Source: Elusimicrobiota bacterium (GTDB lineage: Bacteria > Elusimicrobiota > Elusimicrobia > 2-02-FULL-39-32). From it: a stretch of DNA of 64,000 nucleotides. This document shows positions 10,459 through 14,880 of the stretch, piece after piece (the first letter of the stretch is position 1; each line of letters opens with the position of its first letter). The notes under the pieces are model-generated. The model had not been told where the DNA came from and ran no database searches. It saw nothing but the letters and a program-made list of their open reading frames with translations. A program made the translations under genes and the position numbers. Where the stretch lies: the NCBI GenBank assembly GCA_021730935.1, contig JAKFYJ010000004.1, positions 62,001 to 126,000 on the forward strand, in the 5' to 3' direction.

Positions 10459-11142
10459 ATGCATGAAGTGACTCTGCCTTTTCCTGAAGAATCTCACAGA
10501 ATTCCCTCCCATGTTCCGGTGTTCCCGCTGGAAGGCGTGGTCCTTTTGCCCGGCGAACCCATGCCGCTCCACATTTTTGAGGAAAGGTATAAACTCATGA
10601 CAGAAGCGGCTCTCATGGAAGGGGGACTGATCGCGATCGCTCAGGTGACGCCGGGCCAGGCCCTGCCTTCGGCGATCTTTGGGCTTGGGAAAATCGTGAT
10701 GGACGAAAAAACCATGGATGGGCGGTTCAACCTCATCTTGCTCGGCATGAAGCGCATCCGCGTGAAATCGTTCGTGCAGGAAAAACCTTTTTTGCGCGCC
10801 GAGATTGAAATTCTGGAAGATTCCTTTTCCCAGACATCCGTGAATGTCATCAACACGCTTTCGAAAGAAGTTTATGAGCTCGGCAAACAGCTGCTCTCCA
10901 CAAAAAAGAAAGGCCCGAACGATGTGTCTTATCCGGACCTGGAAAATCTGCCTTATGATTTGCTGCCTCTCGGCATGCTCTGCGACTTGTTTTCTGCGGC
11001 TCTGGGCCTGCCTTCCCTCGAAAAACAGATGATTCTGGAAGAATCTGACGCGGTGGGCCGAGCGGAAAAACTCATCTTCACCATGCGCTTTGAACTGGAA
11101 CGTCACCGCTCGGGAGCGAGCGCCTCAACCTCGCTTCAGTAA
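10459..11142 (+). CDS. LON substrate-binding domain protein (no protease)
   Basis: 227 residues corresponding to the N-terminal LON (PUA-like) domain: VPVFPLEGVVLLPGEPMPLHIFEERYKLM (motif FPL...LPG..LPLHIFEpRY), then GGLIAIAQV and the helical tail. The AAA+ and Ser-Lys protease domains of Lon are absent, as in the family of stand-alone LON-domain proteins whose role is undefined (substrate recognition has been proposed). Transcribed alone from a strong promoter with ATG nearly at the transcript start; its end overlaps the convergent glycosyltransferase by 7 nt. Confidence 0.88.
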   Translation: MHEVTLPFPEESHRIPSHVPVFPLEGVVLLPGEPMPLHIFEERYKLMTEAALMEGGLIAIAQVTPGQALPSAIFGLGKIVMDEKTMDGRFNLILLGMKRIRVKSFVQEKPFLRAEIEILEDSFSQTSVNVINTLSKEVYELGKQLLSTKKKGPNDVSYPDLENLPYDLLPLGMLCDLFSAALGLPSLEKQMILEESDAVGRAEKLIFTMRFELERHRSGASASTSLQ

Positions 11143-11879
11143 ATTTTTTCTCCCCGCATCCTCCGCATCAGCCGCACATAACCCCAGATCGTCTTTGTGA
11201 CTTTCATTTTGCTGTGTCCTTGCCGGAGGTCCCAACGGAGTTTCAGGGGAGATTCGCTGAACTTCGCACCCGTGGATTTCAGATTGAACAGAAATTCGCA
11301 GGCGCAGACGAAACTTTCTTCTTTATAAAATTGCCCGCCGGTTTTGGATGCGAGCGCCTTGAGCGTCTTCATTCGGATCATGCGGAAACTGGAAGTGTAG
11401 TCTTTGACATTTTCGACCCTGAAAAAACGGTCCAAAATCCATCCGCACCCTTTGCTTAAAACCGTCCTGAACGCCGACACGCCCGTCTGACTGCCGCCGT
11501 CCGTGAACCTGGAAGCGATCACGACGTCATAACCTTGCGAAAATTTTTCGATCATCGGAATGAGGGTTTCCGCGGGGTGAGTGTTGTCAGCGTCCATCAC
11601 CACGGCCGCGTCATTGCTGTCTCTGGAGAGTTCGATCGCTCGGGTGAGTCCCGTTCGGAGAGCTTGTGGGAACCCTTTGTTTTTATCGTGGCGGATATAT
11701 TCTGCGATGGGGTTTGCCTGGACCACGGCGGCTGTCTCGTCGGAAGATCCGTCATCCACGACAATCACTTTCAGCATGTGAGCGGGCCTGATTTTATCCG
11801 CGACGGCGGAGAGGGACGGGAGCAGGGGTTTGAGGTTCGCCGTCTCGTTGTAGGCCGGCAAAACCACAAACAGGTTCAT
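11136..11879 (-). CDS. Family 2 glycosyltransferase (dolichol-phosphate mannosyltransferase-like)
   Basis: 247 residues. GT-A fold: VVLPAYNETANL at the N-terminus, IVVDDGSSDETAAV (nucleotide-sugar binding), and the metal-binding DADNTH (about 96-101), followed by the RMIRMKTLKAL region of the DPM1/Ppm1-like group. No membrane helices, so a cytosolic or membrane-associated transferase, probably acting on a polyprenyl phosphate. Ends 7 nt inside the convergent LON-domain gene. The upstream gene on this strand is gatA, 35 nt away across a palindromic repeat. Confidence 0.85.
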   Translation of the reverse strand: MNLFVVLPAYNETANLKPLLPSLSAVADKIRPAHMLKVIVVDDGSSDETAAVVQANPIAEYIRHDKNKGFPQALRTGLTRAIELSRDSNDAAVVMDADNTHPAETLIPMIEKFSQGYDVVIASRFTDGGSQTGVSAFRTVLSKGCGWILDRFFRVENVKDYTSSFRMIRMKTLKALASKTGGQFYKEESFVCACEFLFNLKSTGAKFSESPLKLRWDLRQGHSKMKVTKTIWGYVRLMRRMRGEKIY

Positions 11880-11892
11880 ATTGTTGAACGGC

Positions 11893-11916
11893 AGGGGCGA
11901 TTCATGAATCGCCCCT
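11893..11916. repeat. 24-nt palindromic repeat, copy 1 (supplies gatA stop)
   Basis: Perfect palindrome with arms AGGGGCGATT/AATCGCCCCT around CATG. The flank continues with ACG exactly as in copy 2 (12030-12053). The TAG stop of gatA (11917-11915) is formed at its edge, so the element probably fixed the present C-terminus of GatA. Confidence 0.75.
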
Positions 11917-13396
11917 ACGAGAGAACAGGATTTTCCTTGTGCCAGGAAGTCTGGGACTGATAGAAGGCGGTCATCTGGAGGAGGCGCTCTTCATCGAAAG
12001 GCCGTCCCAGGATCTGGAACCCGATGGGGAGGGGCGACGCATGCGTCGCCCCTACGTTGGAAAACCCGCAGGGGACGGATATTCCGGGAATTCCGGCAAG
12101 GTTGCAGGAAATCGTATAGATGTCTGACAGATACATCTCGAGTGGATCAGACGATTTTTCTCCGACTTTGAAAGCGGTGGAAGGCGCGGTCGGCGTGATG
12201 ATGGCGTCCACTTTTTTGAACGCATTCTCAAAATCTTGGCAGATGAGCGTGCGGACTTTCTGCGCTTTCAGATAATACGCGTCATAATATCCCGATGACA
12301 ATGCATAGGTCCCCAGCATGATGCGCCGCTTCACTTCCGTCCCAAACCCTTCCGCGCGTGACTTTTCATAGAGCTCAAGAAGGTTCGCGGGATTTTTCGT
12401 GCGGTGGCCATATCGAACACCGTCGAAGCGCGCCAAATTCGCGCTGGCTTCAGAGGGGGCCAGGATATAATAAACCTCGATCGCATAATCCATGTGGGGC
12501 AAAGAGATGTCCGTGACCTTGGCTCCGGCGTCTTCATAAACTTTGACCGCGGCCATCACTTTTTCTTTGACGGTGGCGTCCAATCCCTTGGCAAAATATT
12601 CTTTGGGAACCCCAAGCGTCATTCCTTTAACGCCTTTGTTCAGGGACGCGGCATAATCGGGCACAGGTTGATCTGATGATGTGGAATCCATGGGGTCCAG
12701 CCCGGAAATGGTCTGCATCATGTTGGCCATGTCCAGGGCGTCGCGTGTGAAGGGCCCAATCTGGTCCAGCGAAGAAGCAAAAGCCACAAGCCCAAAACGC
12801 GACACGCGGCCATAGGTGGGTTTCAATCCCACAACTCCGCAAAAGCTTGCCGGTTGGCGGATGCTCCCGCCTGTGTCGGACCCTAAAGAAACAGGGGTAA
12901 ATCTGGCCGCAACAGCCGCCGCGGACCCTCCGGAAGATCCGCCCGGAACTCTGGAGGTGTCATACGGATTCCTCGTCGTAAAAAAAGAGGAATTTTCTGT
13001 TGAAGAACCCATCGCGAATTCGTCCAGATTGGTTTTGCCGAGCAGGAGCGCGTCCTGGGCTTTCAGTTTTTGGGTGACGGTGGCGTCATAGGTGGCTTTG
13101 AAACCGGTCAAAATTTTGGAGGCGCAGGTGGTTTCCCAGCCTTCAACATGCATGTTGTCTTTGATGGCGATGGGCACGCCCGCAAGCCGTCCGACAGGCT
13201 GTTGGTTCTGAATTTTTGCGTCGACCGCGATTGCGGATTTCAGAAAATCGTCTTCGTGGATTTTCAGGAAAGCGAGGACTTTTGGGTTTTCCCTTTTGGT
13301 TTTATCCAAAAACGCCTTGGCCACTTCGGCGGCGGAAATTTCCTTGGATTTTATTTTGGCCGTGATCTCTGCGGCTGTCAGGTCGAGAACGCTCAT
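11915..13396 (-). CDS. gatA: Glutamyl-tRNA(Gln)/aspartyl-tRNA(Asn) amidotransferase subunit A
   Basis: 493 residues. Amidase-signature subunit of GatCAB, which releases ammonia from glutamine and passes it to GatB to amidate misacylated tRNA. Seen: catalytic Lys in VPIAIKDNM (about 78), and GGSSGGSAAAVAA plus SLGSDTGGSIRQPASF with the cis-Ser/Ser of the Ser-Ser-Lys triad. Near the C-terminus the usual PCGF-x(2)-LPIG junction is interrupted by NVGATHASP, encoded by palindromic repeat copy 2, and the stop is formed by copy 1. ATG overlaps the gatC stop by 4 nt. gatB is not in the window. A tRNA-Gln gene is present at 32506. Confidence 0.95.
   Translation of the reverse strand: MSVLDLTAAEITAKIKSKEISAAEVAKAFLDKTKRENPKVLAFLKIHEDDFLKSAIAVDAKIQNQQPVGRLAGVPIAIKDNMHVEGWETTCASKILTGFKATYDATVTQKLKAQDALLLGKTNLDEFAMGSSTENSSFFTTRNPYDTSRVPGGSSGGSAAAVAARFTPVSLGSDTGGSIRQPASFCGVVGLKPTYGRVSRFGLVAFASSLDQIGPFTRDALDMANMMQTISGLDPMDSTSSDQPVPDYAASLNKGVKGMTLGVPKEYFAKGLDATVKEKVMAAVKVYEDAGAKVTDISLPHMDYAIEVYYILAPSEASANLARFDGVRYGHRTKNPANLLELYEKSRAEGFGTEVKRRIMLGTYALSSGYYDAYYLKAQKVRTLICQDFENAFKKVDAIITPTAPSTAFKVGEKSSDPLEMYLSDIYTISCNLAGIPGISVPCGFSNVGATHASPLPIGFQILGRPFDEERLLQMTAFYQSQTSWHKENPVLS
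12030..12053. repeat. 24-nt palindromic repeat, copy 2 (in frame in gatA)
   Basis: Perfect palindrome with arms AGGGGCGACG/CGTCGCCCCT around CATG, differing from copy 1 only in the four paired bases next to the centre. Read as protein it gives the GATHASP string inside GatA without breaking the frame. Confidence 0.8.
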
Positions 13397-13680
13397 CCGT
13401 CGATCACCTTGTTCACCTTGAAGAAATTTTCTTCTTTCTCAGGAGCATTGTCGAGGAGAGGTTCGGCAGGGCTCCAGCGGAAAGTCTTGTCTTCTCTCCA
13501 GACCGTCTTGGAGGCAAAAGGGTGAGCGGTCGGCTGAACCTTGGAAGTGTCAGGTTCGCTCAATTTCTCGATATAGCCCAGAATTTTTCCAAGCTGGTCC
13601 GTCAAATTCGTTTTGTCTTCTTCGCTCAACGAAAGCCGCGCCAGCCGCGCCACATGTTCAACGTCTTTTTTGGTGATCAT
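13393..13680 (-). CDS. gatC: Glutamyl-tRNA(Gln)/aspartyl-tRNA(Asn) amidotransferase subunit C
   Basis: 95 residues, normal size. Begins MITKKDVEHVARLARLSLSEEDK, the conserved GatC start; the DQLGKILGYIEKLSEPDTS helix and the downstream PTAHP motif that wraps GatA and GatB are present. It stabilises the GatA-GatB complex. First gene of gatC-gatA (4-nt overlap). Upstream, minus-strand TAAAAT boxes at 4 and about 20 nt before the ATG could serve as -10 elements, but none is clear. Confidence 0.94.
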   Translation of the reverse strand: MITKKDVEHVARLARLSLSEEDKTNLTDQLGKILGYIEKLSEPDTSKVQPTAHPFASKTVWREDKTFRWSPAEPLLDNAPEKEENFFKVNKVIDG

Positions 13681-13713: not shown

Positions 13714-14880
13714 TCATCCAGCCACGAGTCCCAGTTCCAGGAGGCCCTGTTTCCAGGGAAGACAGCGCACTTCATGCAGGATGCTGGGGTTGGGGTCGCG
13801 GCTCAGACAAAAGCATTCGCTGTTGGGAATGTCCTTGCTCAGATGGTGCAGGGCGCGCACGTCTTCCGGAGAGATGCGGTCTGTGGACTTGATTTCAATC
13901 AATGCGCGGGGACGGCCCGGCCGTTCAATGACCAAATCAATTTCTACTCCGGCTTGTGTCCGCAGATATGAGAATTGGAAATCGTTTCGGGCATAACTTG
14001 ATAAGCGGAAAATTTCTGTGATCACGAAATGTTCAAACAAAATTCCGTAATCGAAAGTTCCCGGAGCGATGTTGACCGTCAGCCGGTTTTGCAGGGACCT
14101 CAAAATCCCCGTGTCAAAGAAATAAAATTTGGGGTTTCCGCGCTGTCGTTTTCGGACCGATTCATGAAAGGGTTGAAGCTGAATGCCCAGAAGCGTCTCT
14201 TCCAGAATCTGAAAATAGGTCTGGACTGTCACCGTGCTCACGCCGCAATCGCGGCCGATCTTCGCAAAGTTTATGATCTGTCCGCTGATCTGTGCGGCCA
14301 CAGCCAGAAACCGGTGAAACGGCGCAAGGTTTCGAACCAGCTGTTCCTGTGAAATTTCTTCCTGCAGATAAGTGTGCGTGTATCCCCGCAGAAAATCGCG
14401 CTTGTCGGAATCGCTGGAAAGAGAAAATATTTTTGGCAGGGAGCCCCATTGAAGAACGTTTTCTATATCAAACCCAGCGCCAATTTCTGAATGGGTCAAG
14501 GGAAACAGATGATAGACAAACGCTCTTCCGGCCAGGAGATTTGCGGCCCCCCGCTTAAGCTTGCGCGCGGAGGACCCTGTGAGAGCGAATTTGAAACGTC
14601 CTCGTTCGATTTCGCGATGGACAACGTCCAGGAGGCCTGGAATTTTTTGAATTTCATCCAGAATGATCCACTCCACAGTGTCCGGCAATGCGCGCAGCCT
14701 TTCTTCGAGAGCTTGAGGGCGGAGTTGGAAGGTTTGCTGAATATCCGCATCCAACAAATCGAAGAATGCGGCCTTGGGTTCAGAAAATCGTTGATGTAAC
14801 AATGTGCTTTTCCCTGTTCCTCTGGCGCCGAACAGAAAGAAGCTATTAGATGCAGTTAATTCAATATTTCTTATAATCAT
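13714..14880 (-). CDS. AAA family ATPase with DUF4143 domain
   Basis: 388 residues. Walker A FGARGTGKST (about 17-26), Walker B IILDEIQKIP (about 72-81), sensor ALTGSSARKLKRG, then a DUF4143 C-terminal part with the restriction-endonuclease-like motif GVEIDLVIERPG...LIEIKSTDRIS (about 320-345). This is the large archaeo-bacterial ATPase family scattered by horizontal transfer; function unsettled. Flanked by an AT-rich promoter region and not operonic, so probably a mobile or accessory gene. A canonical promoter precedes it. Confidence 0.88.
   Translation of the reverse strand: MIIRNIELTASNSFFLFGARGTGKSTLLHQRFSEPKAAFFDLLDADIQQTFQLRPQALEERLRALPDTVEWIILDEIQKIPGLLDVVHREIERGRFKFALTGSSARKLKRGAANLLAGRAFVYHLFPLTHSEIGAGFDIENVLQWGSLPKIFSLSSDSDKRDFLRGYTHTYLQEEISQEQLVRNLAPFHRFLAVAAQISGQIINFAKIGRDCGVSTVTVQTYFQILEETLLGIQLQPFHESVRKRQRGNPKFYFFDTGILRSLQNRLTVNIAPGTFDYGILFEHFVITEIFRLSSYARNDFQFSYLRTQAGVEIDLVIERPGRPRALIEIKSTDRISPEDVRALHHLSKDIPNSECFCLSRDPNPSILHEVRCLPWKQGLLELGLVAG

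Follow-up and report, generated by a model that had tools for sequence, protein, structure and literature searches.

Short palindromes that act as stop codons or lie inside genes have been described in several bacterial systems. The following account is taken from the available parts of two papers. GTAG REPs are palindromes of 20-40 bp bearing a GTAG tag, the TAG of which serves as the stop codon of a neighbouring gene, and intragenic copies occur, among others in genes for DNA polymerase and repair (Di Nocera et al., 2013, PMC3733652). REPs of the "double foot" type show GT[AG]G and C[TC]AC at their opposite ends and are assigned to subclass 2.4 of the TnpA-REP transposases, which corresponds to RAYT group 4; REPs of this subclass sit inside tnpA without breaking its reading frame (Quentin et al., 2018, PMC6006769). 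Among the intragenic palindromic elements of Rickettsia conorii, RPE-4 and RPE-6 are of the CGTC type and RPE-1 is longer; that study found no transposase gene adjoining CGTC repeats (PMC3733652).

The DNA analyzed here (the window) is a stretch of 64,000 nt from an Elusimicrobiota bacterium (assembly GCA_021730935.1, contig JAKFYJ010000004.1, positions 62,001-126,000 of the forward strand), the draft genome of which comprises 96 contigs and is 95% complete. It harbors two 24-nt palindromes (11893-11916 and 12030-12053), spaced by 113 nt, free of mismatches to the pattern and each followed by ACG on its 3' side, where 0.01 were expected from 100 shuffles. Pattern search and shuffles thus bear out a sequence-only reading of this DNA, which had described the pair, the ACG and a paired change of the inner arm bases (TT/AA in copy A, CG/CG in copy B). 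Its 24-nt palindrome is perfect at both places, but the actual repeat unit is 28 nt long (GTAGGGGCGANNCATGNNTCGCCCCTAC, abbreviated as GTAGGGGCGA...TCGCCCCTAC). Read on the minus strand, the ends are GTAG...CTGC for copy A (11891-11918) and GTAG...CTCC for copy B (12028-12055), each copy having one drifted outer end. With a probability of roughly 0.86, we assign this element to the GTAG REPs, specifically to the double foot type linked to RAYT/TnpA-REP subclass 2.4; it would be a mobile, non-autonomous hairpin that is transferred in single-stranded form.

Both copies concern gatA (11915-13396, minus strand), encoding a 493-aa subunit A of the Asp/Glu-tRNA amidotransferase, as identified by TIGR00132 (623 bits, cut-off 481), PF01425 and solved structures such as PDB 3h0l. 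The flanking minus-strand genes, gatC-like upstream (13393-13680) and glycosyltransferase-like downstream (11136-11879), were named by reading, without a family search; an ATP-binding AAA-like protein (13714-14880, named by reading) adjoins the gatC-like gene. The gatA frame runs through copy B as N-VGATHASP-LPIG, with the VGATHASP codons at 12032-12055 (minus strand), and terminates at a TAG (11915-11917, minus strand) inside the GTAG foot (11918-11915) of copy A, which lies between gatA and the next gene. An alignment with 18 other rows (21 genomes were queried, two of them without a match, and the row of G006 ends short of the site) confirmed GATHASP as an insert, as had been supposed: all 17 relatives with sequence at the site, among them two congeneric genomes, lack it. 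The net gain amounts to six residues relative to these proteins, and a seven-residue gap appears against solved chains (two alignments shown). The insert probably falls in a loop, judging from the alignments. It could be argued that GATHASP has a selected function in this GatA, as a loop or binding motif, since the frame is kept and the rest of the protein matches GatA fully; its absence from every covering relative and the same string in a transposase, in RNase J and in other unrelated frames render this highly improbable, and a GatA-specific feature was dropped on the 17 relatives. The VGATHASP peptide is best seen as a tolerated insert, for which no function of its own is proposed, and it would be tolerated because one reading frame of the element is open.

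The other claim, that the palindrome makes the gatA stop, stands only in part. The TAG now lies within copy A, but the sister genomes G001 and G002 have a gatA TAG stop at the same codon; thus, copy A carries the stop without having created a new one. In both sisters the GTG start of the next gene overlaps the gatA stop; 35 nt separate stop and start in the genome studied.

Genome-wide, the element was found at 22 places (42 oriented rows) with at most 3 mismatches, against 0 for a reversed-pattern control. A looser pattern yielded 26 places versus 6 in the control, so that long-loop matches may be due to chance; it adds two copies (C10:57410 and C12:56185) in which the eight-base centre has the same layout, giving a total of at least 24 copies (22 plus the two 8-nt-loop copies). 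Sorting of the 22 copies by reading placed six in frame inside long frames (gatA, pheS, kdpA, a DnaX-like gene and the paralogues at L024 and L194), of which gatA, pheS and kdpA have a family match. Three form in-frame extensions, at the N-terminus of polA and at the C-termini of a rimK-like gene and a phosphoglycolate phosphatase gene. Nine provide the stop codon of the preceding gene: eight via TAG (gatA, sdhB, deacetylase, pepM24, the gene before dinB, leuC, kdpB and panD) and one, in an epimerase gene, via TAA from a foot drifted to GTAA. The remaining four fall elsewhere (L004, L016, L189 and L026, the last ending an 84-codon frame of unsure reality). PolA, sdhB, leuC, panD, dinB and the phosphatase were named by family match, some matches of truncated frames lying below the curated cut-off; kdpB, the epimerase, the deacetylase and the DnaX-like and rimK-like genes were named by reading. 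In the two paralogous long frames the element sits at about the same place with differing loop bases. In the core genes gatA, pheS, kdpA, polA and dinB it acts as linker, stop or start.

GTAG occurs at one or both ends of 16 of the 22 copies; six have it at neither end, one of these showing GTGG. Most copies have one drifted end, and both ends are intact in a single copy (C32:17146).

As RNA, the repeat folds into a strong predicted hairpin (-20.3 kcal/mol, z -5.0 to -6.9). Together with the nine copies that end the preceding gene, this would suit immobile regulatory hairpins, i.e. terminators or mRNA stabilizers selected at gene ends. However, six copies lie in frame within long frames (three of them in family-matched proteins), a T run follows neither window copy, covering sister genes lack the element and the same sequence is common to several phyla. 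We therefore consider such an origin quite improbable; a terminator-only reading was dropped for want of a T run and because copies lie in frame. A secondary effect on mRNA is possible, and the folded RNA could alter mRNA ends.

Information on the history of single sites came from three sister genomes (G001, G002 and G003; 72-79% complete), compared where they cover the gene; all three hold copies of the element (at most 3 mismatches). A joined query with pieces of 13 proteins gave orthologues for comparison in ten cases; the epimerase retrieved only distant paralogues (~27-35% identity), and kdpA and kdpB yielded nothing usable from the sister query. For nine of these ten further genes (pheS, panD, leuC, sdhB, pepM24, deacetylase, polA, dinB and phosphoglycolate phosphatase) the element is absent at the place in every covering sister, with the caveat that the G001 deacetylase gene end contains CGATTGACCCCTACG, which could be a remnant. 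PheS is six residues longer than in G001, and KdpA shows 11 extra residues at the insert relative to the solved chain 6hra_A. Conversely, the G001 deacetylase gene carries an element in frame in mid-gene (VGAIHESPL); the genome studied has it only at the end of this gene. Filled and empty sites in these alignments support non-autonomous mobility. Three close coding-site comparisons (gatA, pheS and the G001 deacetylase) show net gains of 15-18 nt, short of the full 28 nt; therefore, insertion is not a clean addition, or the inserts were trimmed later.

Seven genes end on an element TAG and have a covering sister. Five of them (gatA, sdhB, pepM24, panD and leuC) share the same-codon stop with at least one sister, and two (the deacetylase and the gene before dinB) share it with none. 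For dinB, the element supplies the ATG that is, by reading, the only plausible start after the element's own TAG; G002 uses an ATG of its own.

Other palindromes were observed in the sisters. A different, longer inverted repeat, beginning with GGGGACAC, lies just after panD in G002 (L250) and fits the GGGGWSAS motif of TIR elements given in the available part of PMC3733652. The end of the rimK-like gene bears REP-like palindromes in G002 (GTAGGGAACGGTCGCGACCGTTCCCTAC) and G003 (GTAGGAGCGAGGCATGCCTCGCCCCCAC) and none in G001, so that three kin genomes have three different palindromes there (L246, L253 and L030) and a fourth has none; either insertion at one place was repeated or one REP was replaced by another.

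The distribution of the element extends far beyond these relatives. A pattern with 24 of the 28 bases fixed and four free matched at least 117 stretches of public genomes, belonging, among the matches listed, to at least 81 genomes by accession (hand count) and to about two dozen phylum-level groups by title, with Chloroflexota the most frequent; since draft MAGs make up nearly the whole set, individual assignments may reflect misbinning. These stretches hold 123 copies, with both GT[AG]G/C[TC]AC ends intact by virtue of the search pattern. Despite the four free bases, 114 of the 123 exact 28-mers are perfect palindromes (32.6 expected with independent arms), and the paired change noted in gatA is therefore general. 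Fifty genomes chosen as palindrome holders contain 1 to 40 copies each of a slightly looser form (control 0), which counts 11 copies in the genome studied, one in G001, four in G002 and none in G003. Within the phylum the exact form is patchy, occurring in 3 of 340 genomes, the present one included. The 28-mer pattern was also seen in 19 viral contigs (L278-L296). A plasmid search with a 30-mer query found no match at E 0.01, which is weak evidence for so short a query.

Of the oriented public copies flanked on each side by 60 or more open codons, 20 lie in a VGAxHxSPL frame and six in an RGxACxAPT frame, not all of them real genes. Four of these 26 frames were searched against Pfam and all four matched: a MurD-like ligase (two strings), a ThiL-like AIRS protein, RNase J (two strings) and, weakly (29.5 bits), a phosphomannose isomerase. 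The statement that GATHASP-like strings occur in unrelated predicted proteins was sound, VGAxHxSPL being found in unrelated proteins of other phyla. A literature text search gave no occurrence of GATHASP, and palindrome fragments gave no paper on bacterial repeats among the matches listed; the sequence may nonetheless have been printed before. Neither of the two observations that could have spoken against a mobile palindrome was borne out: further copies are present in the genome, several of them in proteins in frame or as stop codon, and GATHASP is not conserved among GatA relatives. The notion of a widespread mobile palindrome gains support from the at least 24 copies, the empty sites and the occurrence in other phyla; its class, GTAG REP/RAYT, is not named in the sequence-only reading.

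Some preference may exist at the insertion sites. Of 246 flanks (L072-L188), 75% have a pyrimidine immediately before GTAG, and A is raised at -7. The element TAG ends a frame of at least 150 codons in 23 of 246 oriented public sites, versus 29 for the 20-odd bases immediately upstream; for the TGA within the TT-loop type the figure is 2 of 52 oriented sites, and scaling from this rate suggests that about nine of the 23 frames could be truncated or spurious. Targeting of stop codons (GTAA, GTAG and CTAG in the sisters) is suggestive only.

A link to RAYTs emerged from loci where repeat and transposase coincide. At L187 a Y1 transposase frame contains the palindrome; at L106 the palindrome sits where a C-terminal piece of a transposase begins, and at L145 it lies in an open frame just upstream of a likely transposase start. 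A RAYT query derived from L187 (it contains REP-encoded residues and so slightly favours such loci) matched in 42 of 50 palindrome-bearing genomes (E <= 0.001, some weak), a figure lacking a background rate from palindrome-free genomes; the other eight gave no match to this query. Among the matches listed, a loose-pattern palindrome occurs at 11 of 30 RAYT loci, the other 19 being without a GGGGCGA palindrome. With the strict pattern, ten copies were counted in nine of the 30 loci versus 0.35 expected from the density of each genome. Leaving out L197, L209 and L212, the contigs of which were already known palindrome holders, seven copies in six of 27 loci remain versus about 0.33 expected (by subtraction). 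In other genomes (L197, L198, L203, L204 and L205) the REP is found in or beside the RAYT gene, in frame between the HUH and Y motifs, and many other RAYTs show, by eye, different VGA- strings at the same place. The repeats might alternatively be MITEs or terminal inverted repeats of an ordinary DD(E)D transposon, with which short dispersed inverted repeats and empty sites agree. This is very improbable, considering that copies are found within and next to Y1 transposase genes, that 16 of the 22 copies have GTAG at one or both ends and that target duplication was not seen by eye in the compared filled and empty sites.

In the genome studied, the argument for the transposase link has its main gap. 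A PF01797 search found one fragment below the cut-off, and a clade-specific query found a second half. The two halves (L276 at the end of G000:C77, and L195:1-486 at the start of G000:C28) are the only RAYT of the clade found and are probably one gene broken by assembly. They read NHIH, WQ and YILDNP, compared with the motifs NH[IFV]H, WQ and YIxNNP. A match to NCBIfam NF047646 lay below its cut-off. Both carry a different REP (GTAGGGGCAGGC...GCCTGCCC), of which the genome has only these two copies. A cognate RAYT with the same REP as the gatA copies was not found in this assembly (95% complete), nor was a RAYT of this clade found in the element-bearing G001, G002 and G003 (72-79% complete). 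Since the RAYT found bears another REP, it becomes less likely that the gatA-type element was moved by a RAYT of the host itself. The fragmented draft and a RAYT seemingly broken at a REP might raise the suspicion of an assembly or binning artefact, but the copies are spread over different genes, have proper flanks and recur in three relatives, which leaves this a close to negligible chance.

For the double foot REP reading, the following course of events is proposed. A RAYT/TnpA-REP transposase of subclass 2.4 (HUH, Y1 type) would move the hairpin in single-stranded form; the transposition itself, the single-strand route and an enzyme acting in this host are suggested by the transposase association and the published family. 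Insertions would survive where they do the least harm. Inside proteins, survival would require an open frame (VGAxHxSPL, or RGxACxAPT for some loop types); at gene ends, the foot would serve as stop codon and, in a single instance (dinB, by reading), the central CATG would provide the start codon.

About two dozen phylum-level groups have in common one REP sequence in which 24 of 28 bases are constant, and the palindrome-bearing RAYTs are only 47-60% identical to one query (L187). We tentatively, at a little under even odds, picture either a RAYT-REP recognition code frozen over very deep time or a REP repeatedly passed between RAYTs and hosts, and in both cases a ready-made stop, start or linker that has repeatedly reshaped gene ends as well as loops in core enzymes. 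It can play these parts because TAG lies in the foot, CATG in the centre and one frame is open. The RAYT tree (built without L216 and L222, with phylum labels assigned by hand from titles) is poorly resolved, 16 of 25 inner branches being open; it is too weak to tell deep conservation from exchange and neither proves nor excludes transfer. The element explains recurring odd in-frame peptides of unrelated predicted proteins (VGATHASPL, VGAIHESPL, VGARHASPL and RGEACLAPT), and such REP-encoded peptides can lead annotation and alignments astray. Filled and empty sites in gatA, pheS, polA, leuC, sdhB and panD offer ready material on REP insertion and its cost, and with a sequence shared across phyla, RAYT-REP recognition can be tested on a single substrate versus many enzymes.

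Compared with the known systems, as described in the available parts of the sources, the element shares palindromes inserted within genes with the Rickettsia palindromic elements (PMC3733652); the CGTC foot of RPE-4 and RPE-6 is absent, the feet here being GTAG/CTAC. Like IS200/IS605 (TnpA Y1), the proposed system relies on an HUH-Y1 enzyme that recognizes hairpins; in contrast, REPs contain no gene, and a REPtron does not seem to be mobilized as a whole (PMC6006769). The element resembles the GTAG REPs in length (28 nt), GTAG tag, TAG stops and intragenic copies, a likeness set by description, as the consensus sequences lie in a figure and were not compared (PMC3733652); its copy number is low, with at least 24 in the genome studied versus more than 100 per genome for GTAG REPs (PMC2817692, available part). 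The closest counterparts are the double foot REPs of subclass 2.4, which likewise combine a long stem with a GTAG foot and an opposite CTAC foot and are patchily distributed over phyla (PMC6006769); here, however, the only RAYT found in the genome bears another REP sequence. No mention of one REP sequence common to many phyla was found in the available parts of PMC6006769 and PMC3733652. The class of element, a GTAG REP with a double foot, is thus already known, and the near-identical sequence across phyla is the less expected part.
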